Shown here piece after piece: positions 14,623 to 64,000 of a stretch of 64,000 nucleotides of DNA; position 1 is the first letter of the stretch; the number at the start of each line of letters is the position of its first letter. Made by a program: the position numbers and the translations under genes. The DNA comes from a virus, in IMG/VR virus record IMGVR_UViG_3300036795_000115, positions 1 through 64,000 of that record. One strand, 5' to 3'. The notes beneath the pieces are model-generated. The model was not told where the DNA came from, ran no database searches, and saw only the letters and a program-made list of their open reading frames with translations.

Positions 14623-14651
14623 TTGCCAACGACCAGCGCGAACGCTAATCT
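14623..14651 (+). promoter_or_regulatory. Sigma-70-type promoter
   Basis: TTGCCA (14623-14628), 17 bases, TAATCT (14646-14651). The spacing is ideal and the -10 is AT-rich in a GC-rich setting. A start near 14658 would run straight into the terminator at 14696-14728 and, with read-through, into the secreted-protein gene at 14753. Confidence 0.6.
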
Positions 14652-14657
14652 CTGCTT

Positions 14658-14728: not shown

Positions 14729-14752
14729 CTTGCCCAACCCCGGGGGCATCCC

Positions 14753-17516: not shown

Positions 17517-17583
17517 CCAACAGATTGAGGCGTTGCCCACCCCGCACCTGCCCAGGCTGCGACCTACGCCGAGAGGCACTCGG

Positions 17584-17961: not shown

Positions 17962-18003
17962 GTTGGATCAAAGCCAACCATGCTGCCGTTGCATCACGCG
18001 GGA
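17933..18003 (-). tRNA. tRNA-Gln (anticodon TTG)
   Basis: 71-nt cloverleaf read by hand: acceptor TCCCGCG paired with CGCGGGA, a 4-bp D stem ATGC/GCAT, anticodon arm GTTGG-CTTTGAT-CCAAC giving anticodon TTG, and a normal T arm CCAGG-TTCGAAT-CCTGG. No CCA is encoded. It decodes CAA. Confidence 0.92.
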
Positions 18004-18008
18004 TTGAG

Positions 18009-18080
18009 CTGCCCTGCCTGGACTCGAACCAGGAACCCCAGCATCAGAGGCTGGTCGGTTGCCAATTACCTCACAGGGCA
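18009..18080 (-). tRNA. tRNA-Gln (anticodon CTG)
   Basis: 72-nt cloverleaf: acceptor TGCCCTG with CAGGGCA, anticodon arm CCAGC-CTCTGAT-GCTGG with anticodon CTG, T arm CCTGG-TTCGAGT-CCAGG. No encoded CCA. It lies 5 bases upstream of the TTG isoacceptor in the direction of transcription, and downstream of the RuvB-like gene, so all three may share a transcript. Confidence 0.92.
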
Positions 18081-21297: not shown

Positions 21298-21744
21298 ATG
21301 AGCGGTAGTCGAGGCCCGTTGTCCAATCCGAGTGCACGCCGTCGGAACCTTCCGTCCGGCTCGAAGATCCAGCTCCCGATGGAGGGCTGGCAGGGCCCGA
21401 TCCCGGACTGGCCCCTGGTCGAGGCCACGTCGATCGAGCTGGATCGCTGGGAGCGCATGTGGCGCACCCCGATGGCCGCGCAGTGGGTGCGGATGCACAT
21501 CGACACCGTGATCGCCCGGTATGTGCGGGTGGCGTTGCTCGCCGAGTCGTTTGATCACGAGACGTCGGTGGCGATGGCGAACATCAAGGGCGAGGCCCGC
21601 CAGCTCGAGTCGCTGTTGGGGTTGAACCCTTCGGCGTTGAAGCGTCTGGAGTGGGAGATCGTGGTCGATGAGGTTGAGGAGCAGCGTGAGGTGGCTCCGG
21701 CGCGGCGTCGGTTGAAGGCTGTGGACCCGGATGTGCCGGCATGA
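21298..21744 (+). CDS. Terminase small subunit
   Basis: 148 residues. The N-terminal RGPLSNPSARRRN, followed by the WPLVEATSIELDRWERMW helix and a long C-terminal helix (ESLLGLNPSALKRLEWEI), matches the small terminase subunit of actinophages, which binds the packaging start and regulates the large subunit. It heads the structural operon; AGGAGG precedes the ATG. Confidence 0.82.
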   Translation: MSGSRGPLSNPSARRRNLPSGSKIQLPMEGWQGPIPDWPLVEATSIELDRWERMWRTPMAAQWVRMHIDTVIARYVRVALLAESFDHETSVAMANIKGEARQLESLLGLNPSALKRLEWEIVVDEVEEQREVAPARRRLKAVDPDVPA

Positions 21745-22585: not shown

Positions 22586-24178
22586 ATGCCCTGGCACGGG
22601 GGAGACGGTGATCCGGGCGCCTTCCCGACGTTGGGCTTCGCGGTCATTGACTGGATCGAAGCAAACCTCATCGTCCCGGATGGCGCTCGTCGCGGTGAAC
22701 CGTTCCTGCTGACGCCCGAGCAGCAGTGGCACATCATGAAGTCGTACCAGCTCAAGCCACACGCTCGGGCCGATATGGGCTCGCAAGCGTTCACGTACTA
22801 CGGCTCGCTGTTGGTGCGCCCGCAGAAATCCGGCAAGGACCCCCTCGCCGCAGCGCAGGCGTGTGCTCAAGCGCTCGGCCCGGTTCGGTTCGCCGGCTGG
22901 GACGCAAGCGGGGAGCCGGTGGGCTCTCCTATGCCGACGCCCTGGATCCAGTGCGCAGCCAACTCGGAAGATCAGGTTGGCAACACCTTCAGTCCGATCT
23001 TCACGATGCTCTCGGAAGGCCCGGCGGCGAACACTCCGGGCCTGGATGTGGGCCTGACCAGGGTGAATTTACCGGACGGTGGCCGTATTGAGCCGGTCAC
23101 GGCGGCGGCGAAGAGCCGTCTGGGTGCCCGGATCACCTTCGCCACCTTCACCGAGTCGGGCCTGTACACCGAGTCATCCGGTGGCGTGACCTTGGCGCGC
23201 ACCATGAAGCGCGGTTTGGCCGGCATGGACGGCCGCTGGATGGAGCTCACCAACGCCTACGACCCGTCGGAGCGTTCGGTAGCCCAGCGAACGTGGGAAG
23301 CCAAGGCTCCGGGCGTCTTTCTGGACTATCGGCAGCCCCGGGTGCGCGTCGATCTGGACGACGATCAGGCACTTCGAGCCGAATTGGTCTACGTCTACGG
23401 GGATTCGGCCATCGAGAACGGCGGCTGGGTCCGCATTGAGCGGATCATGGACGAAATCCGAGATCCGAGCACTGGTGAGGGTGAGTCTCGCCGGTTCTAT
23501 CTCAACGAGGTCACGGTCGGGTCGCGCGACGCCGTCGACATGATCAAGTGGACGGCTCAGCGGGACTCCAGCGAGCCGCTCCAGAAGCGCCAGCAGGTCG
23601 CGTTGGGCTTCCATGGCTCCCAGAACCGCGACGCGACCTCGTTGTGCGCCTCACGGCTGTCTGACGGTCGCATTTACCATCTCAGGACGTGGGAACGGGC
23701 CCCCGGAGAGTCGGAATGGACCGTTCCGCGCGAGGAAGTCCACCAGGCCGTCCGGGATGCGTTCAAGGCCTTCCAGGTCGAGGCCATGTTCTGCACACCC
23801 ACGGGTTGGCAGACCGAAGTGAACGTGTGGGACGGGCAGTACCCGAAGAAGGTCTACGAACTGTGGACCAACTCCGAGTTGCGCATGGATCAGCTGGTGG
23901 AACGGTTCCAAACGGCCCATCGGGGCGACGAATTGACCCATGACGGCACCGAAATCCTCACTATGCACGCCGCTGGGGCTGCTTTGGCCAACGGAAAGCG
24001 GCGTTCCACGGCCGAGGAGCGGGTGCCGGGGCAGCCTGAGCACTACCAGCGGATCGTGAAGAAGTCGCACGCACAGTCAATTTCCGCCTTCATGGCGGCG
24101 CTTTTGGCCTACGAAGCCCGTGGTTGGGCCATCGAACACGGGTCGTTGGCGAAGCGGAAAGTACCCAACTTGTGGTGA
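22586..24178 (+). CDS. Terminase large subunit, catalytic residues apparently lost (TerL1)
   Basis: 530 residues, full length for the actinophage family, and directly before the portal gene. The ATPase P-loop region is RPQKSGKD (residues 78-85), keeping Lys84. The Walker B region reads ITFATFTES (residues 183-191), with Thr189 where Asp is expected before Glu190. The nuclease core reads LGFHGSQNRD with His343 where family members have Asp (GFDGS), then FCTP with Thr404 for the second Asp, and SISAFMAA with Ser500 for the third (IDAA-type). All three metal-binding acids are therefore missing, if my recall of the family is right. The overall fold is otherwise well preserved, with no frameshift. 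It could act as a docking scaffold. Confidence 0.85.
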   Translation: MPWHGGDGDPGAFPTLGFAVIDWIEANLIVPDGARRGEPFLLTPEQQWHIMKSYQLKPHARADMGSQAFTYYGSLLVRPQKSGKDPLAAAQACAQALGPVRFAGWDASGEPVGSPMPTPWIQCAANSEDQVGNTFSPIFTMLSEGPAANTPGLDVGLTRVNLPDGGRIEPVTAAAKSRLGARITFATFTESGLYTESSGGVTLARTMKRGLAGMDGRWMELTNAYDPSERSVAQRTWEAKAPGVFLDYRQPRVRVDLDDDQALRAELVYVYGDSAIENGGWVRIERIMDEIRDPSTGEGESRRFYLNEVTVGSRDAVDMIKWTAQRDSSEPLQKRQQVALGFHGSQNRDATSLCASRLSDGRIYHLRTWERAPGESEWTVPREEVHQAVRDAFKAFQVEAMFCTPTGWQTEVNVWDGQYPKKVYELWTNSELRMDQLVERFQTAHRGDELTHDGTEILTMHAAGAALANGKRRSTAEERVPGQPEHYQRIVKKSHAQSISAFMAALLAYEARGWAIEHGSLAKRKVPNLW

Positions 24179-24192
24179 AAGGGGCCTCGAGC

Positions 24193-24366
24193 ATGCCGCA
24201 GTGGCTCCTTTTGACCCTCGAAATCGTCGGATGTGCCCTGTTCGTGGCCGGAGTGTGGCTGTTTTGGCACCCAGGGGCGTTCCTGGTCGCCGGAACGGCC
24301 ATTGTGGTGGCCTGTGAGCGTTGGTCGATCGCGGAGACGGCTCGCAGGCAGGGACAACGCCGGTGA
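24193..24366 (+). CDS. Small membrane protein between terminase and portal (57 aa)
   Basis: Start at 24193. Two hydrophobic helices (WLLLTLEIVGCALFVAGVWLF and FLVAGTAIVVA) and a charged end. Similar short membrane proteins lie here in other actinophages. GTGA-overlaps the portal. Confidence 0.6.
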   Translation: MPQWLLLTLEIVGCALFVAGVWLFWHPGAFLVAGTAIVVACERWSIAETARRQGQRR

Positions 24367-25613
24367 GCCTGTTCCGGATCAAGGAACGTCGAACGAACAT
24401 CGAAAATCCGGCCGTCCCCCTGAATTCCCTGTCCCTGCTGGGCCTGTTCGGCGGTCAGCCCACCGATTCGGGTGTGCCGGTCACCGAGTACACGGCGATG
24501 AACATGTCGGCCGTCTACCGGGCCGTCAGCCTCATCTCCGGGCTCGCTGGTTCACTGCCGTTGCAGGCGGTGGACACCGCCACGAAGAAGCCGGTCGAGG
24601 GAACCATCCTCGAAGACCCGCATCCGGAGATGACGGCGCTCGAGTTGTGGCGTCTCGCGGCGGTGCATCGCTGCCTGTGGGGTAACAGCTACCTGCAGAA
24701 GGTCTACAAGCGCGGCGGCAAGATCGCCTACCTGAACCCGATCTCCCCGGACAGGGTGACGGTGCTGCTAGCTGACCCGATCACCGCGAACCCGTCGGGA
24801 AAGGTCTTCAAGGTCGCGCAACTCGACGGCAAGATCGTGCCGATGACCCCGAACGAGATCATGCACATCCCAGGCATCGGCTACGACGGCAGATGTGGGA
24901 TCTCCCCGGTGCGGGCGGCAGCCCAGGCAATCGGAATGGCCCAAGCGGCGGAAGCTACCGCCGCTCGACTGTTCAAGTCCGGCAACATGCTGTCCGGCCT
25001 GCTCTCCACTGAGGCCGAGCTGGACCAGTCTCAGGCCGAGACGTTGCAGGCGCGCTGGGCGGAGAAGTTCTCCGGCATCGACGGTGCCCACCGGGTCGCC
25101 GTGCTGGACTCCGGGGCGAAGTTTCAGAGCCTCGTCATGCCGAACGACGACGCGCAGCTGCTCGAGTCCCGCGACTTCCAGGTCACGGAGGCGGCCAGGG
25201 TATTCGGCATCCCGCCGTACCTGATGTATCAGACGGACAAGACCACGTCGTGGGGCTCCGGGCTGGAACAGCAGGCGCGTGGTTTCAACCAGTTCGACCT
25301 ACACCCGAACTGGTTGGCCCCGGCCGAGCAGCGGATCACGAAAGAGCTGCTGCCGGCGGGTCAGAAGGCCCGCTACGACATCGACAGCCTGTTGCGCGGC
25401 GACTCGATCGCCCGCGCCGAGTACTACCGGGTGATGCGGGAGATGGGCGCTTACAACGTCGATGAGATCCGCGACCTGGAGGATCTGCCGCCGCTGCCCA
25501 ACGGTGCCGGCCAGGTGTATCTGCAGCCGATCAACCCGAACGCGGTCAATGCCCCGATGGGCTCGGACAAGGTTCTGGGTGGTTCGTCGCTAGGCCCGTC
25601 TGATGGCGGCTAA
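24363..25613 (+). CDS. Portal protein (HK97 family)
   Basis: 416 residues from a GTG overlapping the previous stop. Family landmarks include MNMSAVYRAVSLISGLAGSLPL, the wing MTPNEIMHIPG, then ARVFGIPPYLM and the C-terminal helical AEYYRVMREMGAYNVDEIR. Forms the twelve-part ring through which DNA enters and on which TerL docks. Normal length; nothing degenerate. Confidence 0.92.
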   Translation: MSLFRIKERRTNIENPAVPLNSLSLLGLFGGQPTDSGVPVTEYTAMNMSAVYRAVSLISGLAGSLPLQAVDTATKKPVEGTILEDPHPEMTALELWRLAAVHRCLWGNSYLQKVYKRGGKIAYLNPISPDRVTVLLADPITANPSGKVFKVAQLDGKIVPMTPNEIMHIPGIGYDGRCGISPVRAAAQAIGMAQAAEATAARLFKSGNMLSGLLSTEAELDQSQAETLQARWAEKFSGIDGAHRVAVLDSGAKFQSLVMPNDDAQLLESRDFQVTEAARVFGIPPYLMYQTDKTTSWGSGLEQQARGFNQFDLHPNWLAPAEQRITKELLPAGQKARYDIDSLLRGDSIARAEYYRVMREMGAYNVDEIRDLEDLPPLPNGAGQVYLQPINPNAVNAPMGSDKVLGGSSLGPSDGG

Positions 25614-25920: not shown

Positions 25921-27216
25921 ATGCTTCGTAGCCTGCCGACTGGTGAAGAGCGTCGTGATCTGTCCCTGCTCGACGCGGGCGTTTCTCTGCAAGTCGAACC
26001 TTCCACCGAGACTCGAAGGTTCGTGGGCCACGCGGCGGTGTTCAACAGTCGAACCGCGATCGGCAACCCCCGCACGTTCGGGTTCTACGAGCGCATTTCC
26101 CCCGGTGCGTTCACCAAGACCCTTCAGGAGTCCGACGCCCGGTTCTTGATTGACCACTCCTCGTACCACGTGGTCTCAAGGGCATCGGCCGGCACGCTCC
26201 TGCTGAGTCAGAACACACGCGGTCTCGCGGTCGACTCCGCGCTCGACACACGCTTGTCCTACGTCAACGACCTGATCGCCAACTTGGACAACGGCAATAT
26301 CCGGGGCATGTCCTTCGGGTTTCAGGTGGTCAAGGACGAGTGGAGCGAGCTTTCGGAGCGTGACGCCAACGGCGAGCCGTTCACGGTCGAGGACCGTGAC
26401 ATCAAGGAAATCAAGCTGATCGAAACCAGCTCGGTGACCTTCCCCGCCTACGAGGAAACCGACGCGGGACTGCGCCACAGCCTCGTCCCCGCGTTGCGTC
26501 ACCGGGGCGACCTGGACGCCATCGCCCGCGCGGTGTCGTTTCGCCCCGAGCTGGCGCACCTACTGGGGTACGACCCGGAACTCGCGCCCACGCACATTCT
26601 CTTGGACAGCCGAGCTATGGCCAAGAAGCCCGCCCCCGCTGACGATGAGTCAAAGGAGCCGGCGTCAGCCGACAAGGCGGGCACAGTCATCCCGTATCAG
26701 CACACCGCGACCAGCGACAAGGCGTGGGATGCGGCGTCGAACGTCAAAAACCTGGGCGACACCCCGTCGGCGGACTCGCTGCGAGCGTGTTTCGGGTGGA
26801 TGCACGACGACCACGACAACGACGCAGATGACGACCCGACGAACAAGAGCAACTACAAGTTTCCCCACCACTTCGTCTCTTCTGACGGGTCGGTGGGTGC
26901 GGCGTCCACGGTGGCTTGCTCCGCCGGGATCGCCGCGTTGAACGGCGGCCGTAGCGGCGCGAATATCGCCGACTCGGCCCGCTCCGGGGTGTATGAGCAC
27001 CTCGCGCACCACCTTCGGGACGCTGGCGCTGAACCGCCAGAGTTGAAGTCGCACAGTGAGCCGGCTGAGACCACTCATAACGCCGACCCGGAAGTAGAAC
27101 CAGCTGAGATCCCGGAAACCGAGCCGGCCGCGTCCACTCGGGACTTCGAATCTGAGCAGTACACGGCCCTGGCGAAGGCCCGCGCACTCGCGGTCCGCCT
27201 GAGCTTGGCCGCCTAA
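25921..27216 (+). CDS. Prohead protease (S78) with an extra C-terminal domain
   Basis: 431 residues. The protease domain spans residues 1-190 with the His in FLIDHSSYHVV and the Ser in GMSFGFQV, the catalytic pair of HK97 proteases. After a Glu/Ala linker, residues 230-380 form a second domain with DKAWDAAS, RACFGWMHDD, YKFPHHF and LNGGRSG, an element seen fused to or next to actinophage prohead proteases and of unknown activity. The last 50 residues are acidic, so the protein may also scaffold capsid assembly. Start at 25921 from GAAGGG. Confidence 0.88.
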   Translation: MLRSLPTGEERRDLSLLDAGVSLQVEPSTETRRFVGHAAVFNSRTAIGNPRTFGFYERISPGAFTKTLQESDARFLIDHSSYHVVSRASAGTLLLSQNTRGLAVDSALDTRLSYVNDLIANLDNGNIRGMSFGFQVVKDEWSELSERDANGEPFTVEDRDIKEIKLIETSSVTFPAYEETDAGLRHSLVPALRHRGDLDAIARAVSFRPELAHLLGYDPELAPTHILLDSRAMAKKPAPADDESKEPASADKAGTVIPYQHTATSDKAWDAASNVKNLGDTPSADSLRACFGWMHDDHDNDADDDPTNKSNYKFPHHFVSSDGSVGAASTVACSAGIAALNGGRSGANIADSARSGVYEHLAHHLRDAGAEPPELKSHSEPAETTHNADPEVEPAEIPETEPAASTRDFESEQYTALAKARALAVRLSLAA

Positions 27217-27293: not shown

Positions 27294-28586
27294 ATGAGCA
27301 ACGAACTGAACAAGCGGTACCGCGAGGAGCTCATGGGGCTCTCGCACCGCATGAACGAGATCCTCGGCGAGACCGAGAAGGCTGGCGAGTGGACCGCTGA
27401 GCAGCGGACCAACTTCGACACCGCCAGCGCCCGCGCCGACGAGCTCGAGGCGAAGGTCACCGAGCTGGAGGCCGACGCCAAGCGCGCCGACCGTGCGCAC
27501 GGTCTTGACGCCGTGGATTACTCCTCGGTCGTGCAGACCCGCGCGGGTGCCCCGGTGCAGACGCCGGAGCAGTCGGTGGAGGAGCGCGACGCCGCTCACG
27601 ACGCCGAGTACCTGCGGGCCTTCGAGTCCTACGCCCGCAACGGCCTGGAAGACCTGCGTCCCGAGCAGCGGCAGATCCTCGCCGCGAACTACGTGCGTGG
27701 CGGTCAGGAAGCTCGCGCCGGCGCGGTCACCTCCCCGAGCTCTTCCGGTGGTTACCTGATCCCGCCGGGCTACCGGCAGATCATCATCGAGCGGATGAAG
27801 GCGTTCGGTGGCCTGCTGCAGTACGCCACGGTCATCAACACCTCGACCGGTAACCCGTTGCAGTGGCCGACCAACGATGACACCGCCAACCAGGGTGCCC
27901 TCAACGCGGAGACCCATGACCTGGCGACCGGTTTCACCGAGTTCACGTTCGGGACCGCGACCCTGGGTGCGTGGCTGTACGCCTCTGGTGTCGCCCTGGT
28001 GTCGGTGCAGCTGCTACAGGACAGCGTGTTCGACCTGAACACCTGGCTGCCGGATCACATCGGCACCCGTATCGGCCGCAAGGTCGCCTCGGTGCTGGTC
28101 ACCGGCGCCGGCACCACCGAGCCCCTGGGTGTGGCCACCAACGCCACCGTGTCCGTGACCGGTGCTGACACCACGTCGATCACCTACGACAACCTGATCG
28201 ACCTGGAGCACTCGCTCGACCCGGCGTACCGCAACAACTGCCGGTTCATGATGAACGACGCCACCCTCGCGGTCATCCGGAAGATCAAGGACTCGCAGGG
28301 CCACCCGCTGTGGGTCCCCGTGCCGGTCCCCGGCATGGCGCCGAGCATCAATGGTCAGCCCTATTTCGTGGATCAGGGAATGGCTGTTCCGGGTGCGTCG
28401 AACAAGTCGATCCTGTTCGGTGACTTCCAGCGCGCGTACGTGGTCCGCCAGGTCTTGGACATGAATATGGTGCGATTCAGTGAGCGCTTCATGTCGGCAC
28501 TCCAAGTAGGCTTCCTCGGCTTTACTCGACTGGACGCCACGGTGCAGGACTCGAACGCTTACGCGGCATTCCAGCACCACGCCTGA
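27294..28586 (+). CDS. Major capsid protein (HK97 fold)
   Basis: 430 residues. The first 110 are a coiled-coil delta domain (scaffold, likely removed by the protease). The HK97 core starts near SSGGYLIPPGYRQIIIERM and continues through FGTATLGAWLYASGVALVSVQLL, the spine and P-loop. Closes with FTRLDATVQDSNAYAAFQ. A hairpin follows the gene. Confidence 0.93.
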   Translation: MSNELNKRYREELMGLSHRMNEILGETEKAGEWTAEQRTNFDTASARADELEAKVTELEADAKRADRAHGLDAVDYSSVVQTRAGAPVQTPEQSVEERDAAHDAEYLRAFESYARNGLEDLRPEQRQILAANYVRGGQEARAGAVTSPSSSGGYLIPPGYRQIIIERMKAFGGLLQYATVINTSTGNPLQWPTNDDTANQGALNAETHDLATGFTEFTFGTATLGAWLYASGVALVSVQLLQDSVFDLNTWLPDHIGTRIGRKVASVLVTGAGTTEPLGVATNATVSVTGADTTSITYDNLIDLEHSLDPAYRNNCRFMMNDATLAVIRKIKDSQGHPLWVPVPVPGMAPSINGQPYFVDQGMAVPGASNKSILFGDFQRAYVVRQVLDMNMVRFSERFMSALQVGFLGFTRLDATVQDSNAYAAFQHHA

Positions 28587-45376: not shown

Positions 45377-46516
45377 ATGAAGTTCGGTAAGACGCGCACC
45401 CCCGAGCTGGCCACTAGCTACACCCGCAAGCCCCGCGCGGGCGGTGTCGCGTACAACCCCCGCCAGGTCGCCGCCGCCTACAACTGCCCCATCACCCAGT
45501 TCGACGGCACCGGCGTCACCGTCGGCATCGTCGAGCTCGGCGGCGGGTACAACCCGGCCGACCTGGTGGCGATGGGGCTCAAGGCGAACGTCACGGTCGT
45601 TGGTGTCGATGGGGCCAGTTCCAAGTCCGACGGCCCGGACGGCGCCGACGGTGAGGTGATGCTCGACGTCGAGGTGGTCGCGGCGGTCGCCCCCGGCGCC
45701 AAGCAGCGCGTCTACTTCGCCCCGAACACCGATCAGGGGTTCCTGGACGCCATCGTGCAGGCCGCTAACGAGTGCGACTACGTGTCGATCTCCTGGGGTG
45801 GGCCGGAGACCTCGTGGAGTAAGAAGACCGTCGCGGCCTACGCCGCCGCGTTCGCCGCCGCCCGAGCCAAGGGTGTGACCGTGTTCGCCGCCTCGGGCGA
45901 CTCCGGCAGCACCGACGGCACCCGCGCCAACACCACCGACTACCCAGCCTCCGACCCGTCCGTCGTCGGCTGCGGCGGCACGAAGCTGCTGCTCAACGCC
46001 GATGGCTCCCGCGCCTCTGAGGTCACCTGGGACGACTCGGACACCCAGTCCGCCACCGGCGGCGGCGTGTCCCGCCTGTTCCCCGGCCGCCAGGTCCCGG
46101 ACGTCGCCGGCAACGCCAGCCCGAACACCGGCTACCTGGTCAGTGTCGACGGGCAGTCCTTCCCGATCGGTGGCACGTCCGCTGTGGCTCCGTTGTACGC
46201 GGGCATGTCGGCGGTACTGCGCCAGGCGTACGGCAAGTCCTGGGACTTCCTCAACACGGTTGTCAGCAATCCGACGATCTGCTTCGACGTCACGATCGGC
46301 GACAACGGCGGCTACAAGGCCGGCCCCGGCCGCGACCAGGTCACCGGGTTCGGCGTGGTCGACATGGGCAAGCTGCTCGCGGTACTGCAGGGCGGTGGAC
46401 CCGTGGTCACCCCACCGCCGGTGGTTACCCCGCCGTCGACTGATGCGACCGCACTGCTGGTCAGCATCGAGACGCAGATCGCGGCGTTCCTCGCCGCACA
46501 GACGCACGGTCACTAA
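45377..46516 (+). CDS. Sedolisin-family (S53) serine peptidase
   Basis: 379 residues with the subtilisin-like fold and acidic triad of S53: Glu93 and Asp97 in GEVMLDVEV, the oxyanion Asp175 in ASGDSGS, and Ser268 in GGTSAVAPLYAG. No propeptide and no signal peptide, so it would be active without processing but needs release by lysis or a holin. A Pro/Val linker and a helical end (residues 345-379) follow. It is directly upstream of the endolysin (3 bases apart), so a lysis or tail-tip protease role is likely. Confidence 0.88.
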   Translation: MKFGKTRTPELATSYTRKPRAGGVAYNPRQVAAAYNCPITQFDGTGVTVGIVELGGGYNPADLVAMGLKANVTVVGVDGASSKSDGPDGADGEVMLDVEVVAAVAPGAKQRVYFAPNTDQGFLDAIVQAANECDYVSISWGGPETSWSKKTVAAYAAAFAAARAKGVTVFAASGDSGSTDGTRANTTDYPASDPSVVGCGGTKLLLNADGSRASEVTWDDSDTQSATGGGVSRLFPGRQVPDVAGNASPNTGYLVSVDGQSFPIGGTSAVAPLYAGMSAVLRQAYGKSWDFLNTVVSNPTICFDVTIGDNGGYKAGPGRDQVTGFGVVDMGKLLAVLQGGGPVVTPPPVVTPPSTDATALLVSIETQIAAFLAAQTHGH

Positions 46517-56102: not shown

Positions 56103-56318
56103 TCAGGTAATGGGCGGCTTGAACGAGTAGCCCCACAACGACGACGTCAGTCGAACTCCGTTGGCGAACACCAACACGGACAGGAAGTCGGGCTCGTCCT
56201 TGTCGAACACCTTCTCGACGAGGGGGCTGGTGAACTCGCCGCCGGCGCAACAGTCCTCCCATGACACGTCGTAGACGATGCCCACGGTGAGATCGTCAGC
56301 GGCCACGGCGTCGGTCAC
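56103..56318 (-). CDS. Hypothetical protein (71 aa)
   Basis: Acidic beta-rich protein with WEDCCAGGEF; GTG start within a GGAGACACCGTGA box. Looks like an SH3-type small domain (VGIVYDVSW, VFANGVRL). Unknown. Confidence 0.6.
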   Translation of the reverse strand: MTDAVAADDLTVGIVYDVSWEDCCAGGEFTSPLVEKVFDKDEPDFLSVLVFANGVRLTSSLWGYSFKPPIT

Positions 56319-56602
56319 GGTGTCTCCCCGGTCGCATCGGTTCGCTTCAACACCGCACGGGCCTGATCGAGCGCCCCAACCAGGTCAGCGTCTTCGTCGT
56401 TCCATGCGTCCAACACCAGGGTCAGCGCGGTGGCCAGTTGTTCGTTCGCCGCATACAACGTTGCCCCCGGGTAGCAGTCCGGGCACACCACGTCGCCGCA
56501 CGTTTGGCAGAACGCGTTCTTGCGTGGGGGCGGTGTCAGCGACGCGGACGGTGGTTCGTATCCGTCGGGTAAGCCCGGCGTCTTGATCGGCCAATCTCTC
56601 AC
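56315..56602 (-). CDS. Zinc-binding hypothetical protein (95 aa)
   Basis: CQTCGDVVCPDC in the middle and a helical C-terminal half (TALTLVLDAWNDED). GTG start in a GGAGACACCGTGA box. Unknown. Confidence 0.6.
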   Translation of the reverse strand: MRDWPIKTPGLPDGYEPPSASLTPPPRKNAFCQTCGDVVCPDCYPGATLYAANEQLATALTLVLDAWNDEDADLVGALDQARAVLKRTDATGETP

Positions 56603-57009
56603 GGTGTCTCCATCCGTACCGCAGCCTTCAGGTTCTCCTCTAGTCGGTCACGGATGTCGATCCACGCTCTCCGCCCGGCCTTGGGCAGGTCGTGGGCGAA
56701 CCCTTCCCGGGCCAGGTGTTCGACCAGTGCGGTGGCGGCCTCCACGATTGGCGCCTGAGCGGCCACCTGGGCTCGGAGCTTTACCAACTCGTCCTGCGTG
56801 CTCCGGGAGACCGCGAACACGCGTAGCTTCTCGGCGGACCTGATGATCGGCACCTCGTCATGCCTCGACTCCAGCAACTCGTCGGGCGTGTTGTCCGAGT
56901 AGATGGTGCAGCTGCACGACTTCGGGAACCGGCAGCAGCTGGGGTCGTATTCACCTTCGGAGCAGTAAGGCCACTGCTCGATGCACGACAGCAGACGTCG
57001 CTCGCTCAC
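56599..57009 (-). CDS. Hypothetical protein sharing the IVEAATALVE helix (136 aa)
   Basis: N-terminus with six Cys (CIEQWPYC, CCRFPKSCSC), then a coiled region and QAPIVEAATALVEHLAREG, shared with other genes here. GTG start behind GGAGG. Confidence 0.6.
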   Translation of the reverse strand: MSERRLLSCIEQWPYCSEGEYDPSCCRFPKSCSCTIYSDNTPDELLESRHDEVPIIRSAEKLRVFAVSRSTQDELVKLRAQVAAQAPIVEAATALVEHLAREGFAHDLPKAGRRAWIDIRDRLEENLKAAVRMETP

Positions 57010-57269
57010 GACTTGCCTCCGTTCAGGGCGTCGGTCAGGGCGGTCAGCAGCTCGGCGGTTTTCGCGCCGGGGCCAGGGCCAACTCCGACGCCCGCTCGGC
57101 AGTGTTCGACCAGTGCGGTGGCGGCCCGCTCCACCAGGCCACGCCGGTCAAACTCGGCCATGACGATCGGCAACGACGCGTCGACGGCGGGCACCTCGCC
57201 GTCCCGGATCGCAGTTCGGACGTTGTCCAGAGCATCGGCCAGTTCGTCGGGGGAGGGCTGCTCGCTCAC
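57006..57269 (-). CDS. Hypothetical protein of the SPDEL/EFDRRG set (87 aa)
   Basis: PSPDELADAL at the start, MAEFDRRGLVERAATALVE in the middle, Gly/Pro loop, short helix. Shares both modules with 58004-58495. GTG start in a GTGA overlap. Confidence 0.6.
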   Translation of the reverse strand: MSEQPSPDELADALDNVRTAIRDGEVPAVDASLPIVMAEFDRRGLVERAATALVEHCRAGVGVGPGPGAKTAELLTALTDALNGGKS

Positions 57270-57700
57270 CGGCGCACCTCCCTGATCAGCGCCGCCAGCA
57301 AGTCGCCGTCCACCTCGTCAACCGAGTGCGGGTCGTAGCTCTCAGCCAGCCTGAACGCCGCCTGAACGATCGCCTCGCGCTCATTCAGCTCCGCATCGCG
57401 CACGGTCAGCAGCTCACCCCGCCGGTCGTACTCGGCCAGTAGGTACTGCAAGTCGCGGTTACCGGACCCGAGGTATACCTCCGCAGCTCGAAGGCGTGCA
57501 CGCTGCACCAGGTCGGCCAGGCAGTCCGGGCCGTGCTCAATGCTGCCGTCGTCGCGCTCGCCCATCACCGTCTCCTCCCAACCAAACCCACCAACGCTGC
57601 TTGCCGTGTCCCGGCGTAGCGGGTTTGGCCCGTCGGTTGCCTCGTACAGGCCCAGCTCCTCGGCCTGCCGCACAAGACCCGACAGTGGGTCGTCGGTCAC
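57266..57700 (-). CDS. Hypothetical protein of the EFDRRG set (144 aa)
   Basis: Contains LLAEYDRRGELLTVRDAELNEREAIVQAAFRLAE, related to the modules of its neighbours. An internal ATG at 57565 sits behind a strong ribosome site inside a 34-base repeat, so a shorter 99-residue product may also be made, or be the main one. Confidence 0.6.
   Translation of the reverse strand: MTDDPLSGLVRQAEELGLYEATDGPNPLRRDTASSVGGFGWEETVMGERDDGSIEHGPDCLADLVQRARLRAAEVYLGSGNRDLQYLLAEYDRRGELLTVRDAELNEREAIVQAAFRLAESYDPHSVDEVDGDLLAALIREVRR
57562..57595 (-). repeat. 34-base direct repeat, copy 1 of 2
   Basis: On the minus strand GTTGGTGGGTTTGGTTGGGA, then GG, one variable base, GACGGTGATGG. The second copy lies at 58773-58806 with one mismatch. 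Both end at an ATG start codon, and both contain GGGAGG. Confidence 0.75.
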
Positions 57701-57876
57701 GGTGACTCCTCGTCCGCGTTTGACCAGTGGTCATCTGCTCCACGTACGAGCTTGCAGGGGCCGACCCACACGGTCTCTCCCTTGACAATGGCGTCGACCG
57801 GGACGTTGTCGCGCCACTTGTCACCGTAGGCGTTAAACAGGATCACGTAGCGGGCCGCACGTTCCTCGTTGGTCAC
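57697..57876 (-). CDS. Hypothetical protein (59 aa)
   Basis: GTG start in the GGAGACACCGTGA box. ARYVILFNAYGDKWRDNVPVD, then a beta KGETVWVGPCKLV. Unknown. Confidence 0.6.
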   Translation of the reverse strand: MTNEERAARYVILFNAYGDKWRDNVPVDAIVKGETVWVGPCKLVRGADDHWSNADEESP

Positions 57877-58007
57877 GGTGTCTCCTCGGCTGATATCGTT
57901 GAGGGCATAGCCAGCCCACTGCGGTGAGACTGGAAGTGAGACCCAGGAGTTCCCGTCGGATGACGGGGCCTGGGGCTCGCGCCTTTCTCGGCTTTTGGCT
58001 TGCTCAC
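57873..58007 (-). CDS. Possible linking microprotein (44 aa)
   Basis: Open frame with GTGA overlaps at both ends, Pro/Ser/Arg-rich, no structure visible. Likely translated, perhaps only as a coupling bridge. Confidence 0.4.
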   Translation of the reverse strand: MSKPKAEKGASPRPRHPTGTPGSHFQSHRSGLAMPSTISAEETP

Positions 58008-58495
58008 TTCGTCTCCCCGTGTACCGCAGCAGCCAAAGCGTCCAGCGCTTTTTGGCTACACACGTTGGGTTCGTAGCCTGACCACGTCTTACCCCAGAAC
58101 GGGTCGCCGGGTCCCGGACGTGCGGACTCGACCAGTGCGGTGGCGGCCTCCACAATGTCCCGCTGCCGGCCGATCGTCGCGCCGATCATGACGAAGTCCG
58201 CCGCGTACTTGACGTTGTCCGCCTTCAGTCGCACGATCTCCGCACCCCGCCGGTCGAACTCCGTCAGCAGCAGTCGTGCCGACAGGGCCGGGTCGTGCAG
58301 CTGTTCACCTTGGGCGAGCCGGCGCATGTTGCGCACGAACATCGGCTCAGCCAGTTCGTCGGGGGAGGGCAGCTCGCTCATGGAGGCGGCGGCGCTGTGC
58401 GCACACCCCGGATGCTGACAGACGCCAGTACGGAGGTCCTGGCGGTGAATCGAATGCCGAGCCGTGATCCGCTCGTCGGCCAGTTCGTCGCTCAC
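58004..58495 (-). CDS. Hypothetical protein of the SPDEL/EFDRRG set (163 aa)
   Basis: GTG start at 58495. CQHPGCAH zinc group, then LPSPDELAEPMF, LLLTEFDRRGAEIVRL and DIVEAATALVE. It holds all three modules that the neighbours carry singly, so it may be the parent form. Confidence 0.65.
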   Translation of the reverse strand: MSDELADERITARHSIHRQDLRTGVCQHPGCAHSAAASMSELPSPDELAEPMFVRNMRRLAQGEQLHDPALSARLLLTEFDRRGAEIVRLKADNVKYAADFVMIGATIGRQRDIVEAATALVESARPGPGDPFWGKTWSGYEPNVCSQKALDALAAAVHGETK

Positions 58496-58776
58496 GGCTG
58501 ACACTTCCCTTCGTGGCCTGCGTAGTCCCCGCACTGCTCCGGAGGCTGCAATCCGCTGTACAAGTGACCGAGACAGCGCACACGGCGAATCCGGTCCAAC
58601 TCTTCCAAGGCTTCGCGGCGCTCCCTGATCAGCTTGCGTAGACGGGCGACGATGAGAAAGTCCAGCGGTTCGGCTTCGTCCAGTTCGTCGGAAGAGGGCT
58701 GCCGACCATGATCGTGTTGGCACTCCGGGCCGTCGTAGAAGTCGACCTCCCGGTGCATCGACTCGGGGGAGTCCAT
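58492..58776 (-). CDS. Hypothetical protein (94 aa)
   Basis: ATG at 58776 lies in the 34-base repeat with a GGGAGG site. Cys/His N-terminus (CQHDHG), QPSSDELDEAEP, a basic helix and a C-terminal C...H...C set. Partly related to the SPDEL set. Confidence 0.6.
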   Translation of the reverse strand: MDSPESMHREVDFYDGPECQHDHGRQPSSDELDEAEPLDFLIVARLRKLIRERREALEELDRIRRVRCLGHLYSGLQPPEQCGDYAGHEGKCQP

Positions 58777-59108
58777 CACCGTCGCCTCCCAACCAAACCC
58801 ACCAACACGGCCGCGCACAGCATTAGCCCCATGCATCCGGCGGCCTGCGCTGGGCCCGCCGTCCGCTCGTCATGCACCCGGGCGGTCAACTTCCGGCCCT
58901 GCCGTCTGGCCGCTTCCCCTCTGTGCTTTCCGTTCCAGCCCTCCAGGGAGCCGTCGGCTCGGCGGACGATGAAGGGGTCTCCATCTGTGGACCGCTTGTT
59001 GGGGTTCCGTTCGTAGGCGGACACGGCGCGTTCGTTGAGCTTGTGTCCGGCCCAGCGGACCTTGTTTGGGTCCACCTGCTGCCGGCGAGCCCGGTCATAA
59101 CTACTCAT
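58776..59108 (-). CDS. Basic protein with C-terminal membrane helix (110 aa)
   Basis: First 85 residues are very basic with GDPFIVRRADGSLEGWNGKHRGEAAR, which recalls ParB/sulfiredoxin-like N-terminal motifs (G-x-H-R). The last 25 residues are a membrane helix. DNA or RNA tethering to the membrane is possible. Confidence 0.6.
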   Translation of the reverse strand: MSSYDRARRQQVDPNKVRWAGHKLNERAVSAYERNPNKRSTDGDPFIVRRADGSLEGWNGKHRGEAARRQGRKLTARVHDERTAGPAQAAGCMGLMLCAAVLVGLVGRRR

Positions 59109-59896
59109 CACGCCTCACTCTCGGTCTCCGGCTGGTAGCCCTCGCACAGGCAGTCGTGATCACAGTCGTGTGCGGCATGGCACCGCGCGTTCGGTGGCGG
59201 CGGAATGGCCCCTCCGTCGCCGTGCTTATGGGGCGAGTGACCGCAGGTGCAGCGAATCCATGGGACGTCCACCCCGCTCTCGGTGGGGGTGGCAGACAGC
59301 ACCGCACGGGCTCGATGCGCCACAACTTGCCCGCCGATGTCGATCTGCGCCAAGCTCTCTAGCTTCTCAACCGTCTCGGTCAGTGCGGTGGTCAGCAGGT
59401 CGACACGGGCCTTGAGCGCCTGCGCCTCCTCGAACCGAACAGCGCACCGGCGAGCCAGTGAGTCACGTTCCCGCACGGCTTTGTCCAGCGCCTCGGTCGG
59501 CTGTTCGGCGGCTAGTACCTCGGCTACCGCATCCACTGCTCGGGCCCAGGAGTTGTGCGCCATCTTGGTGCCGTCGTAGAACGCCTCTCGGGCAGCTTCG
59601 GCGGCGCGGTCCCGAACATCCGGATCAAGGTCAGGCATCACGCGCCTCCCTTCAAGTAGCTGGTGTGCACGGTTGTATTCCCGCTCCGTGCGCGCCTCGC
59701 CGTGGATCACGCCGCACAACCACGCCGCATCGGCCTTGGACAGCACGATCACGTCCCCGCCGAGCAACACGGCCGCCACGGCGTCGACCATCGCCAGGTA
59801 CTGGTCGTCCTCGTGCCGATAACTTGCGTCCCAGAAAATGGACTTGATCCGTTGGGCGGCGCGGTCCCGGACATCCGGCGGCAGGTCAGCGGACAT
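59108..59896 (-). CDS. Hypothetical protein with an internal duplication (262 aa)
   Basis: LPPDVRDRAAQRIKSIFWDA...AMVDAVAAVLL near the start repeats at residues 87-130 as LDPDVRDRAAEAAREAFYDG...RAVDAVAEVLA. A coiled coil and a Cys/His-rich end (RCTCGHSPHKH, CHAAHDCDHDCLC) follow. It may be two fused genes. Unknown. Confidence 0.65.
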   Translation of the reverse strand: MSADLPPDVRDRAAQRIKSIFWDASYRHEDDQYLAMVDAVAAVLLGGDVIVLSKADAAWLCGVIHGEARTEREYNRAHQLLEGRRVMPDLDPDVRDRAAEAAREAFYDGTKMAHNSWARAVDAVAEVLAAEQPTEALDKAVRERDSLARRCAVRFEEAQALKARVDLLTTALTETVEKLESLAQIDIGGQVVAHRARAVLSATPTESGVDVPWIRCTCGHSPHKHGDGGAIPPPPNARCHAAHDCDHDCLCEGYQPETESEA

Positions 59897-60122: not shown

Positions 60123-60205
60123 CGCTTCACCGTCATAACGATGAGCAGCAGGGTGATCACGGACAGCTGGAACTGGATCAAGGCGATCTGGGTGGACGTC
60201 TTCAT
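60119..60205 (-). CDS. Membrane micropeptide (28 aa)
   Basis: MKTSTQIALIQFQLSVITLL and a short basic end: a single membrane helix. Overlaps both neighbours by four bases and has an acceptable ribosome site, so it is likely real. Confidence 0.55.
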   Translation of the reverse strand: MKTSTQIALIQFQLSVITLLLIVMTVKR

Positions 60206-60387
60206 GGCGAGTCCTTGTGTAGGTCGGAACGGAAACCCTGACCCTTGAGCTCGATCGCCTGAACCTCTTCACGGCTGTACCCGCGTTTCTCCGGGATGCC
60301 GTGCCGGCGCATGACGACCCGAACGTAGTCGGGCTGAATGCCCAGGAACTTGGCGACTTCATCGCGTGTCATCAAGGGTTCTTCCAC
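60202..60387 (-). CDS. Excisionase/AlpA-like HTH protein (61 aa)
   Basis: MTRDEVAKFLGIQPDYVRVVM is a winged-helix of the MerR/Xis/AlpA class, typical of recombination directionality factors or small phage activators. Either the GTG at 60387 (leaderless, see promoter) or the ATG at 60372 starts it. It is the natural partner of the serine integrase at 63377, although serine integrase RDFs are diverse. Confidence 0.72.
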   Translation of the reverse strand: MEEPLMTRDEVAKFLGIQPDYVRVVMRRHGIPEKRGYSREEVQAIELKGQGFRSDLHKDSP

Positions 60388-60431: not shown

Positions 60432-61934
60432 CTAGCCAGCCCTCTTGAGCTCGCCGTGGAAATACTCTTTCCCCAGCGCCACAGCGTCGATCTGATCATC
60501 ATGAAGCGTCTTCGGATACGCCTTCATCTGCGCCTCAAGACCCGAGATCGGCCGAGCATGCACCACCATCGGCGGTCGGCGCAGGTAGCAGTCGTGCAGG
60601 TCCGTGATCCGGTCAATCTTCGAACGACGCAAGTTCACCGCGAAGATCTTCACCCCCGGAGGCAGCGGCGACAGCGTGTTCTCGACGTGATCGCCACCGT
60701 TGGTCACATCCACCACGATGAGCCGGATCCCGTTCTTACGGACGATCGAGTGCACCAGCTCCCGCAACTTGTCCGGCTTCAACCGCACACCCATCACCCG
60801 CTCCACCACCACGCGGCGCACATTGGCGGCGTAGGACAGCATGGCGATACCGGTCTCGTCGTTCGACTTCTTCGACTTCGACGCCGGGTCCACGATCAGG
60901 ATCCGCTCCGTCACATGCGCCAACAGCTTGTCGTCGTAAGTGATGTCGTCGTCATCCCAGAACGTGCCGTTCTCATCCACCGGGGCGTTGTCGAAGTTCT
61001 TCGCGTACCCGCGCGGGTTTCGCAGCCGTTCGGCCCGCTGCCACTCCAGCGCCCACTTCGGCTCCCACAGCGACCGCTCTTCGCCGGTGTCCGGGTCTTC
61101 GACGATGCCCTTGAAGTGGTGCACCTCGATGTTCTCCTCGGCAACCCACGCCTCGCCCTCGACGAGATCATGAATGATGGAGCCCGCCATCACCGTTGTG
61201 CCCGCTACCTGGACCACGGCGCTGAAGTTGCAGGGCAAGATGACGTCGATCAGATCCTCGAGCCGCTTGCGCTTCATCTCGACGCTGTAACGGCCCTTCT
61301 TCGGCTCGATTTCGTCGAAGAGCAGAGCGTCGGGGCGCAGGTTGTCCCACTTCACGCCCAGGGTCGCTGAGTTCATCCCCTTCACCATGATGATCGAACC
61401 GTTCGCGGCCAGGTACGTCGTGTCGTTGTCCTTCAACGCCCGGCCGCCGGTCTTCATCGGTGTACAGAGCTCGGGAAAATCGCGCATGAGGCGCTCGTTC
61501 TGGGAGAATTGCAGCTTGAGCGTGGCCAGGTGCAGCTTCGCCTGATCCTCCGTGTCCGAGTACACGACGATGAACTTGCGATGCCCAAACGCCATCGCCC
61601 ACAGCGGAAGGATCAAGAACAGCCAGGTGGTTTTGGCCCCCTCGCGCGGAGCTACCCAGGCGTCGCGGATCTCCTTCGGGCCGATGTCGGTGCGCATCCA
61701 CCGCTTCGCCGACATCGCCAGGGCCACGTGCAGGTCACTCAGCGCGTGCAGCAGCCCGGGCAGGGTTACGTGCGGGGCCAGGTAGTAGAGCGCGAACAGG
61801 ATCGGCGAGGTGCGGCACCAGTCCCGGCGCTTGTTGATGCATTCCTGGGTGTGCACTCGGAACGCGGAGTGTTTCAGCTTCGCGGTGTAGAGCTCGGGGG
61901 TGAACCCGGGCGGGCCTTCGAGGCGGCGTTTCAT
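60432..61934 (-). CDS. Second terminase large subunit, complete catalytic set (TerL2)
   Basis: 500 residues, of a family different from TerL1. Walker A VAPREGAKTTW (94-104), Walker B ALLFDEIEP with Asp207-Glu208, nuclease motif I ILIVDPASKS with Asp349, motif II IVVDVTNGGD with Asp409, motif III LHDDQIDAVAL with Asp479/480/483. All catalytic residues are present. It is encoded leftward, overlapping its small subunit by ATGA, and 36 kb from the portal gene. It packages DNA in its own system or replaces the function lost in TerL1. Confidence 0.88.
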   Translation of the reverse strand: MKRRLEGPPGFTPELYTAKLKHSAFRVHTQECINKRRDWCRTSPILFALYYLAPHVTLPGLLHALSDLHVALAMSAKRWMRTDIGPKEIRDAWVAPREGAKTTWLFLILPLWAMAFGHRKFIVVYSDTEDQAKLHLATLKLQFSQNERLMRDFPELCTPMKTGGRALKDNDTTYLAANGSIIMVKGMNSATLGVKWDNLRPDALLFDEIEPKKGRYSVEMKRKRLEDLIDVILPCNFSAVVQVAGTTVMAGSIIHDLVEGEAWVAEENIEVHHFKGIVEDPDTGEERSLWEPKWALEWQRAERLRNPRGYAKNFDNAPVDENGTFWDDDDITYDDKLLAHVTERILIVDPASKSKKSNDETGIAMLSYAANVRRVVVERVMGVRLKPDKLRELVHSIVRKNGIRLIVVDVTNGGDHVENTLSPLPPGVKIFAVNLRRSKIDRITDLHDCYLRRPPMVVHARPISGLEAQMKAYPKTLHDDQIDAVALGKEYFHGELKRAG

Positions 61935-62368
61935 GCTGATTCGTCGGCTTCCCAGTCGTCCCAGTCCTCGCCCGATTCATTATCGGAATCGACGGGCGGG
62001 GCGTCGTCGTACAGTTTCAGGCGGGCCGCGTTCTGCTGACGGACCTCGCCGGCGAGGCGGGCGAAGTCGGCGTTGGAGCAGTCTTCGCCGAGCCGTTCGA
62101 ACGTCATGCGGGTGAGTTGATCAAGCTCGTCATGGGCTATGACCTGCATCAACGTCCGAGAGGGACGGTCATGTCTCAACATCAACATTTCGATACGGCG
62201 GTAGAACGTCGCCCTCGAGATGCACAAATCCTTCGCAATATCGTTCGGCGACTCACGCCGCAGTAACCGTGCGTAGGCCAGCGCTGCCTCAGTGTCGATG
62301 ACCTCAGGAGGCTTATTCGGATCCGCGCTCTCGTAGCGGCCGGAATGATCCGTCGCCGGCCGGTCCAT
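61931..62368 (-). CDS. HTH protein, probable second terminase small subunit (145 aa)
   Basis: Residues 28-55 (AALAYARLLRRESPNDIAKDLCISRATFYRRIEML) are a strong helix-turn-helix; the middle is helical (LDQLTRMTFERLGED) and the C-terminal 25 residues very acidic. Position and ATGA coupling to TerL2 make a small subunit most likely. A regulator is the alternative. Confidence 0.75.
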   Translation of the reverse strand: MDRPATDHSGRYESADPNKPPEVIDTEAALAYARLLRRESPNDIAKDLCISRATFYRRIEMLMLRHDRPSRTLMQVIAHDELDQLTRMTFERLGEDCSNADFARLAGEVRQQNAARLKLYDDAPPVDSDNESGEDWDDWEADESA

Positions 62369-62376: not shown

Positions 62377-62610
62377 CTATTCCCAGTCAGAGGAATCGGA
62401 CGCCGCCGGGATCTTGGGCAACCGGTCGTCCATGTGGATGTCATGACACAGATGCGCGGACACGATCGCGGTCGCACCGATGATTCCGGTGGACACCAAG
62501 CTCATGATGTCCCCGTGGTGTGAGACCTGAATCGACAACGTCACCCCAGAGCCCCAGAAGATGGCGAAGGAGACCCACATCAAGATCTCCTTGAGCCGGG
62601 TACGGTTCAC
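62377..62610 (-). CDS. Two-helix membrane protein (77 aa)
   Basis: GTG start. Two membrane helices (LMWVSFAIFWGSGVTLSI and IMSLVSTGIIGATAIVSAHL) and an acidic end. Phage holin- or exclusion-like size, but away from the lysis genes. Confidence 0.6.
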   Translation of the reverse strand: MNRTRLKEILMWVSFAIFWGSGVTLSIQVSHHGDIMSLVSTGIIGATAIVSAHLCHDIHMDDRLPKIPAASDSSDWE

Positions 62611-62690
62611 CGCCGGCAGCCCTTGCCGTCACACAACGGGCAGACTGTCCACTCGCCGTCGCCGCCCCGGTACAGCCCGCCGTCGCACAT
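62607..62690 (-). CDS. Zinc-knuckle micropeptide (27 aa)
   Basis: Contains CPLCDGKGCRR, like half of a DnaJ zinc repeat. Overlaps both neighbours by 3-4 bases. Too short for certainty. Confidence 0.45.
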   Translation of the reverse strand: MCDGGLYRGGDGEWTVCPLCDGKGCRR

Positions 62691-62836
62691 CACGGGTTTC
62701 TCTTCTGCTTACCGCCGGTCAGCTTCGACCCGGTGACGAGCTTGCCCTTGCCGCCGAAGCTGCCCATCGACTTCGGCTGTTGGGCCTTGACTTTGCGGGT
62801 TGTGGTGGTGCGCACGGTCTTCGTGAAGAACCCCAT
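62690..62836 (-). CDS. Basic microprotein (48 aa)
   Basis: Thr/Lys/Gly-rich with GFFTKTVRTTTTRKVK and a GGKGKLVTGSKLTGGKQKR tail. Probably disordered and nucleic-acid binding. Unknown. Confidence 0.5.
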   Translation of the reverse strand: MGFFTKTVRTTTTRKVKAQQPKSMGSFGGKGKLVTGSKLTGGKQKRNP

Positions 62837-62837: not shown

Positions 62838-62975
62838 TCAGCAGTTCCCCCGGTTCCGGTAGTTGTCCCGGCCGCGCTTCATATCGGCCTCGCTCCGGGT
62901 CGGGTTGGCCTTCACCGCCCGGTCCTGGATGGACTTCCAGTCCTTGTCCGAGATCGTGTTCGCGCGGCGGCCCAT
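62838..62975 (-). CDS. Basic microprotein (45 aa)
   Basis: Charged helical peptide with ISDKDWKSIQDRA and Arg/Asn-rich end. One base from the next gene. Unknown. Confidence 0.5.
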   Translation of the reverse strand: MGRRANTISDKDWKSIQDRAVKANPTRSEADMKRGRDNYRNRGNC

Positions 62976-63247
62976 CAGGACTCGTCCTCGATCCCGTGGA
63001 ACGCCTCGAGCTCGCGCAGGAACAGCTCGAGGAGCCAGGCCCGGTTCGCCAGTACCCGTTTGTTGGTACCGCTCGTCGCGTCCCGCTGCTCCTGCAACGC
63101 CTCCAGGGCGATACGCAGCTCGGTGGCCAGGACGGGGCCGTGGATGTCGTGCTCGTGCAGGCGCGGGCGGACCCGGCGCGCGGGTGGCTCGTTGTGGCCG
63201 TTCATGGTTGAAGTAGCGCCCGCGTCGGGGTCGCTGTAAGAATCCAT
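62975..63247 (-). CDS. Hypothetical protein at the head of the leftward operon (90 aa)
   Basis: ATG at 63247 behind AGAGG; a later Met (63205) is possible. His/Arg-rich start and a long helix (LATELRIALEALQEQRD). It is the first gene divergent from integrase, so it may be regulatory. Confidence 0.55.
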   Translation of the reverse strand: MDSYSDPDAGATSTMNGHNEPPARRVRPRLHEHDIHGPVLATELRIALEALQEQRDATSGTNKRVLANRAWLLELFLRELEAFHGIEDES

Positions 63248-63292
63248 GTGCCTCTGCTCCAGGTAGCTCTGGTGCGGGTGGAAGTCCTGGCT

Positions 63293-63308
63293 AGCAGTTC
63301 GAGCTGCT
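63293..63308 (+). promoter_or_regulatory. Near-palindrome between integrase and leftward operon
   Basis: AGCAGTTCGAGCTGCT reads the same on both strands except for one position pair. It lies in the 130-base divergent gap (63248-63376) and is a candidate operator. I see no clear -35/-10 for either gene and no evident att core. Confidence 0.45.
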
Positions 63309-63376
63309 GGTCAGGGCGTTGGGAGTCTCAACCGTACATAAGAGGATTGGTCAGGACGAACCCGTACTATACACGG

Positions 63377-64000
63377 GTGCCGTCCAGTCAGGGAACCTCT
63401 CACGCACCGTTACGGGTGGGACTTTACTGCCGCGTCAGCCACGATCCCACTGGTCGGGGAACTTCCGTAGCTGACCAGGAGAAAGAAGGGCGCGCTTGGT
63501 GCGCCGCGAACGGGCACCTGGTGGCCTGGCTGATTGTCGACAACGACATCAGTGCGAGCCGGTACAGCAAGAAGGAACGCCCCGGGTTCACCGAAGTGCA
63601 GCGACGGTTGGCCGGCGCCGACCCGGTGGAGATCCTGTGGGCGTGGGAGTCGTCGCGGTTCACCCGCGACCTGAAGGTGTACGCGCAAGTCCGGGCGCTG
63701 TGCGAGCGCTACGAGGTGCTGTGGTCCTATCACGGCAAGACCTACGACATGTCCCGGGCGGACGACCGGTTCGCCACCGCGCTGGACGTGATCCTGGGCG
63801 AGCGGGCGTCGGACGACACGAGTGACCGAGTACAGAGAGCGGTGGATGCCCGGGTGGAAGCCGGTACAGCGCACGGACGAGTCCCGTACGGCTACCGGGC
63901 TGTCTACCACCCGCACACCGGGGCTCCGATCGGCCGGGAACCGGACCCGGGCACCGCGCCGGTAGTGAAGGAGATCGTGCGCCGGGTACTCGGCGAAGAG
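63377..64000 (+). CDS. Serine integrase (large serine recombinase), partial
   Basis: 208 residues visible, open at the right edge. VGLYCRVSHD holds the catalytic Ser with neighbouring Arg; VADQEKEGRAWC, then DNDISASRYSKKERPGF and ILWAWESSRFTRD continue the resolvase domain, and DDTSDRVQRAVDARVEAGTAHG leads to the recombinase domain with GRVPYGY. This is the phage integrase family (phiC31/Bxb1 type), which recombines attP with attB in one direction. GTG at 63377 lies 6 bases after TACTAT, so it too may be leaderless. Confidence 0.92.
   Translation, partial: MPSSQGTSHAPLRVGLYCRVSHDPTGRGTSVADQEKEGRAWCAANGHLVAWLIVDNDISASRYSKKERPGFTEVQRRLAGADPVEILWAWESSRFTRDLKVYAQVRALCERYEVLWSYHGKTYDMSRADDRFATALDVILGERASDDTSDRVQRAVDARVEAGTAHGRVPYGYRAVYHPHTGAPIGREPDPGTAPVVKEIVRRVLGEE

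Follow-up and report, generated by a model that had tools for sequence, protein, structure and literature searches.

Packaging in tailed phages is taught as the work of a single terminase large subunit (TerL) that both pumps and cuts DNA. What, then, could a second pair of terminase subunits contribute to a phage that already has one beside its portal? The question is raised by positions 60,432 to 62,368 of a 64,000-nucleotide stretch of viral DNA (positions 1 to 64,000 of IMG/VR record IMGVR_UViG_3300036795_000115; hereafter the window), where an initial annotation made from the sequence alone had placed a second TerS–TerL pair near an integrase. This placement was borne out, and the genome around the pair, the canonical terminase and the relatives of both are described below.

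Two terminase pairs in one circular genome

The window belongs to a record of 68,738 bases whose two ends have an exact 127-base repeat in common, so that the record represents a circularised, complete genome (68.6 kb; G000). It is that of a soil actinobacterial phage and holds a single set of head and tail genes, all head genes lying on the plus strand: the small subunit TerS1 (21379–21744), homologous to the TerS of Streptomyces phage Kromp (E = 7.4e-36; E-values of local searches are relative to small sets), the large subunit TerL1 (22586–24178), the portal protein (24363–25613), the prohead protease (26023–27216) and the major capsid protein (27294–28586), followed by tail genes to ~54.8 kb. 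Two independent genomes also carry both terminases. G001 is a 62.3 kb contig whose TerL2 and TerL1 are 91% and 74% identical to those of the window, respectively. G082, contig JAOPXC010000370.1 of a Nocardioides metagenome-assembled genome (MAG), which points to Nocardioides or its relatives as hosts, is a circular genome of 69,366 bases with a 127-base end overlap, and it is colinear with the window record, also across the join of that record. Some features of the genome may be mentioned in passing. The PHROG label given to TerS1 through phrog_226, 'minor tail protein', looks wrong for a homologue of the Kromp TerS. A gene for a subtilase-family (S8) peptidase (45377–46516, plus strand), 94% identical in G082, lies between the tail and lysis genes, and the minus strand at 56315–59896 encodes a series of small proteins with common motifs (PSPDEL, DRRG, ATALVE), apparently duplicated paralogues.

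The second large subunit, TerL2 (60432–61934, minus strand; 500 aa), has a full-length match to the PHROG 'terminase large subunit' profile phrog_38 (residues 41–492, E = 3.1e-49). Its AlphaFold2 model (mean pLDDT 89) has the T7-like PhiV-1 TerL as the best solved Foldseek match (8dgc, 8.9e-19). The nuclease triad (D349, D409, D483) and the Walker B residues (D207–E208) are present as first annotated; the Walker A motif credited to the protein at the same time is not canonical, since REGAKTT has Ala where the P-loop Gly is usual (AKT rather than GK[ST]). The small-subunit candidate TerS2 (61931–62368, minus strand; 145 aa) overlaps TerL2 by 4 bases. Here the helix-turn-helix (HTH), the position and the overlap stood, while the HTH matches proved weak in both Pfam (HTH_23, 0.0028) and PHROG; a profile built from relatives matches the G001 protein at 2.3e-6 and that of the window at 3.5e-4, a homology that is weak for the window and clear for the relatives. 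The assignment of TerS2 as a small subunit is thus based on the HTH, the position and the homology through relatives.

The pair forms part of a minus-strand unit that has the fibre genes on one side and the integrase on the other. Directly upstream of TerS2 lies a gene for a small membrane protein (62377–62610; 77 aa), which has a comparable position in many distal TerL2 modules, though not in all. It is preceded by genes for a 48-aa basic protein (MGFFTK..., 62690–62836; 63–96% identical in G001 and G082), a 45-aa ORF (62838–62975) and a conserved 90-aa protein (62975–63247), the first gene of the unit, which diverges from the plus-strand serine integrase. The window contains the N-terminal part of the latter (63248–64000), whose ORF extends to 64843 of the record and probably has its true start near 63390. 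Just downstream of TerL2 come a small HTH protein (excisionase/HTH_17-like, 60202–60387, minus strand) and further small genes; gene calls outside the listed ORFs were made with a simple codon-model script, and small genes may be wrong. Small basic proteins beginning MG(F/W)(F/W)(T/S), such as the one at 62690–62836, recur in distal TerL2 units (G057 26224–26379; L230 4131–4382 and 5107–5337). No portal, protease or capsid gene was found near TerL2, and no portal directly downstream of it; TerL1 is 36.3 kb away in one direction and ~29 kb in the other round the circle, in agreement with the initial annotation, which had put it about 36 kb off on the other strand with no head genes close by. 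A sigma-70 promoter scan near TerL2 found nothing, a PADLOC search gave no informative defence-family match for TerS2–TerL2, and a single-sequence query of the genome collection returned no close TerL2 relatives.

Comparison with G082 reveals a replacement at this locus. DNA identity is 92–96% on the upstream side of the pair and 77% on the downstream side, whereas the intervening 2.3 kb that encodes the membrane protein, TerS2 and TerL2 in the window does not resemble the equivalent part of G082 at the DNA level. The swapped cassette is bordered upstream by the gene for the 48-aa basic protein. The TerL2 of G082 is 36–38% identical to that of the window and 49% identical to that of G010. The whole cassette has therefore been swapped between conserved flanks, which indicates that a pair of this type is retained through changes of its sequence; its target presumably changes as well. 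The type of integrase beside the unit is also exchanged, being serine in G000 and G082 and tyrosine (57084–58100) in G001.

TerL1 and the nuclease-dead clade

TerL1 was taken from the outset to be of another family than TerL2, and this is confirmed: its PHROG matches are phrog_19179 (7.8e-67) and phrog_9 (9.2e-41), against phrog_38 and the PhiV-1-like fold for TerL2, and its model (pLDDT 88) matches HK97 TerL (6z6d, E = 2.7e-23). Fold and portal-adjacent position are thus those of an HK97-type terminase. The nuclease Asp triad, by contrast, is replaced by H343, T404 and S500, which in the model stand at the ends of RNase-H-fold elements, the site of the triad. Among 80 TerL1 relatives drawn from viral contigs, all three catalytic Asp are replaced in 23, every one at least 60% identical to the window protein. 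The first residue is H, T, L or F, the second T, S, N, A or F and the third S, in the combinations HTS, HSS, TNS, HAS, LSS and FFS. Full-length relatives outside this set are all D-D-D, and no mixed or intermediate triad occurs among the 80; the triad cannot be aligned reliably in G100 and G103, where the first terminase belongs to another subfamily. A tree computed with the catalytic columns removed requires one change, the nuclease-dead clade being set off from the rest by a branch with an SH-aLRT of 100. The independent genome G082 is likewise H-T-S.

TerL1 had also been described as degenerate, which is correct for the triad and incorrect for the rest of the gene. The ATPase motifs (Walker: RPQKxGKD, TES) are the same in the nuclease-dead and live clades, and dN/dS between close pairs is 0.014–0.036 in the nuclease-dead domain and 0.036–0.085 in the ATPase domain (distant pairs are saturated and were left out). 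Shared motifs and low dN/dS rule out a generally decayed gene. Judged from sequence comparison, TerL1 is retained under strong purifying selection, its nuclease-dead domain included, with the loss confined to the cutting residues; TerL2 is under purifying selection as well. The gene has a further peculiarity. Its last ~120 residues (23800–24178) are nearly identical in the window and G001, although the gene as a whole is 74% identical, and dS between the two is 0.46 over the nuclease part, compared with 1.11 over the ATPase part. Both are signs of recombination inside terL1.

Three further genes lie upstream of the head module, and the last two, related to DNA ends, mark the nuclease-dead clade. 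An HNH endonuclease gene (17533–17961), upstream of TerL1 and on its strand, is conserved in all nuclease-dead genomes in which this region is covered, G008 and G041 among them; it is also present in the live-nuclease relatives G011, G013 and G015. A Ku-like DNA end-binding protein (16282–17067, minus strand; Pfam 2.9e-36) is encoded in G000, G001, G008, G054 and G082, while the live-nuclease relatives tested all lack it. In mycobacteriophages Omega and Corndog, a phage Ku joins short-ended genomes. A full-length RuvB-like AAA+ protein (18127–19356, minus strand) occurs in 6 of the nuclease-dead records searched and in G082, and is absent from all live-nuclease genomes tested. Beside the HNH gene, two tRNA-Gln genes, one with a TTG and one with a CTG anticodon, follow each other (17932–18080, minus strand).

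The distal TerL2 family and its association with TerL1

TerL2-like genes occur in two contexts. In genomes with one terminase they stand directly before the portal; elsewhere they lie far from portals, as the last gene of a unit that converges on the tail genes. About 17 distal genes were found, in uncultured soil actinophages, and 13 of the 17 have a second TerL of HK97/phrog_9 type in the same record. In the TerL2 tree one branch (97/98; 200/200 bootstrap trees) separates the distal genes from the rest, where shuffled labels need ~11 changes; MiniFlayer and Mulchroom, both satellites, fall on the portal-adjacent side along with all cultured phages. The phage collection yielded no cultured phage whose TerL2 is distal, eight of its best matches having been inspected and being portal-adjacent without exception, and all relatives with a distal TerL2 come from metagenomes or MAGs. 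The initial annotation regarded two TerL genes in one phage as rare, and a literature search turned up a single case, a Staphylococcus prophage in which two TerL ORFs lie side by side. In the present group, rarity does not hold: a search for co-occurrence in related phages found both genes together in at least 13 uncultured actinophage genomes.

The nuclease triad, as D-[DE]-D, is kept in all 17 distal TerL2 genes. The P-loop Gly, on the other hand, is lost (AK or MK) in 7/17, the window included, versus 0/15 distinct portal-adjacent relatives (p = 0.008, kinship ignored); one such substitution stands beside a live TerL1 (L218/G096). The P-loop lesion of distal TerL2 would thus appear to fall in an activity that TerL1 has kept.

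Among records of at least 40 kb, TerL2 was present in 6 of 8 genomes with a nuclease-dead TerL1 and in 1 of 16 with a live one (p = 0.0013, kinship ignored); without the window and G001, the figures are 4 of 6 versus 1 of 16 (p = 0.009). Because nuclease loss is a single evolutionary event, an independent-pairs test of this association has no power. Distal TerL2 accompanies several unrelated TerL1 families, and intact TerL1 proteins have it at their side in G073, G095, G096, G099 and G101; it follows that TerL2 did not arise merely to compensate for TerL1. Conversely, a sensitive profile search of six-frame ORFs revealed no TerL2 in G008 (69 kb) or G041 (68 kb), both with a nuclease-dead TerL1, and when selected large proteins without assignment from the two were compared with PHROG, the matches were FtsK-like, TROVE, RecE and RecT proteins and no second terminase. 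As both are linear contigs, TerL2 is likely, rather than certainly, absent from them. Simple compensation is weakened on both counts. Where relatives have the integrase and the TerL2 unit, G008 encodes an FtsK/SpoIIIE-like protein (6082–8082; L068). G041, also of the nuclease-dead clade, encodes a TROVE/Ro60-type RNA-binding protein (13413–15002; L072).

A proposed division of labour, its rivals and known systems

The reading that we prefer, with about even confidence, is a two-component packaging system in which labour is divided. TerL1, adjoining TerS1 and the portal, would translocate DNA as the ATP-driven motor, with a nuclease domain preserved in fold and constrained yet unable to cut. 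TerS2–TerL2 would recognise a site in the concatemer and, as a maturase working in trans, make the double-strand cut that starts and/or ends packaging, and the motor function of TerL2 itself would be relaxed in several members of the family. Two terminases would accordingly cooperate on the DNA of the window phage, one cutting and the other still pumping. Of the three roles initially offered for TerL2 (true motor, trans-acting partner, satellite-like module), the trans-acting partner is the best supported. A stricter version is more tentative and somewhat less probable. In it, an HK97-type motor that no longer cuts would form an obligate machine with a T7-type terminase, now a dedicated maturase whose motor is being lost; this would represent subfunctionalisation of two unrelated terminases, with a family of distal second terminases spread through uncultured actinophages.

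The main rival cutter is the HNH protein, and it is a serious one. It could cut for the nuclease-dead TerL1 and leave TerL2 to some other task (an alternative site, or other DNA); its presence in all nuclease-dead genomes that cover the place, even the two that apparently have no TerL2, speaks in its favour, as does the stimulation of cos cleavage by TerL that is known for the HNH protein gp74 of HK97 (PMC9410871). The HK97 protein, however, is reported to stimulate TerL rather than to replace it, and the HNH gene does not track nuclease loss, as it also accompanies live nucleases; this reading seems unlikely. HNH, TerL2 and TerL1 may also act together in one cooperative scheme. Even less probable is an accessory weapon or exclusion module directed against competing phages or satellites, whose DNA it would cut or divert, with no part in the phage's own packaging. 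Such a role would suit the presence of distal TerL2 beside unrelated TerL1 families, the exchange of divergent alleles at one locus, as in conflict loci, and the membrane protein that often adjoins the cassette, but TerS2–TerL2 matches no known defence family, and the enrichment with nuclease-dead TerL1 would be left to chance or common descent.

That TerS2–TerL2 is the real motor and TerL1 a relic or structural adaptor appears slightly more doubtful still. TerL2 is complete save for one P-loop residue, and in cultured phages the members of its family package DNA next to a portal of their own; yet in the window it is TerL2 that has the odd P-loop, lacking the Gly, and TerL1 that is portal-adjacent in every nuclease-dead genome, with family-typical ATPase motifs shared with the live clade and an ATPase-domain dN/dS of 0.04–0.09 in close pairs, and two nuclease-dead genomes have TerL1 only. 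Distance, strand and the nearby integrase could also point to a second prophage, a satellite or a chimeric assembly beside the first phage; the initial annotation itself had named the prophage and the chimera as fatal to its proposal. Both were looked for and not found: the circular record with its one set of head genes and the independent colinear genomes, including G082 across the join, rule out a separate prophage or chimera unless reads were to show a misjoin, and the reading is extremely improbable. As for a satellite-like module, TerL2 is part of the same complete circular genome, and it differs from satellites of PICI, cf-PICI or MiniFlayer type, there being no separate genome smaller than that of a helper and the satellite TerLs grouping with portal-adjacent ones, apart from TerL2.

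If the division of labour is correct, two unrelated terminases, each damaged in the function of the other, would make it possible to study cutting separately from pumping, and would show how a motor unable to cut is told to stop. They would also define a family of second terminases that cultured collections lack. For annotators, the locus is a warning that a genome may hold more than one TerL, a point of importance wherever TerL serves as a one-per-genome marker.

Among known systems, the nearest to TerL2 are the phrog_38 modules of Microbacterium phages Isperia, Wyvern and OscarSo and of Streptomyces phages Zuko, KimJongPhill and Yara, whose homologous TerL (34–36% identity) is preceded by a TerS where annotated. 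In those cultured phages it is the sole terminase and portal-adjacent, whereas TerL2 of the window is distal, phylogenetically separate and has no head gene beside it. The satellite phages MiniFlayer and Mulchroom have a TerL of the same family (34–37% identity), but they carry their own portal, scaffold and capsid genes in genomes of 15–17 kb; the TerL2 unit has none of these and lies inside a complete phage. TerL1 resembles HK97 TerL (6z6d) and the phrog_9 TerLs of actinophages in fold, position and ATPase motifs. The triad of HK97 TerL is D302/D388/D471 (PMC9410871). Against this D/D/D, TerL1 has H/T/S. Phage phi29 packages preformed, protein-capped genomes and does so without a TerS. Its packaging ATPase has a vestigial, inactive nuclease domain (PMC9410871), which shows that precut DNA can be packaged by a motor that lacks a nuclease. 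The phi29-type motor is thus like TerL1 in its inactive nuclease but works without TerS, whereas the window phage has two TerS and a second TerL. In Gordonia phage Dogfish and Streptomyces phage Ponzi, finally, ATPase and nuclease domains are annotated as separate genes; there one TerL is split into two adjacent genes, while the window phage has two full-length TerLs of different families with complementary lesions.
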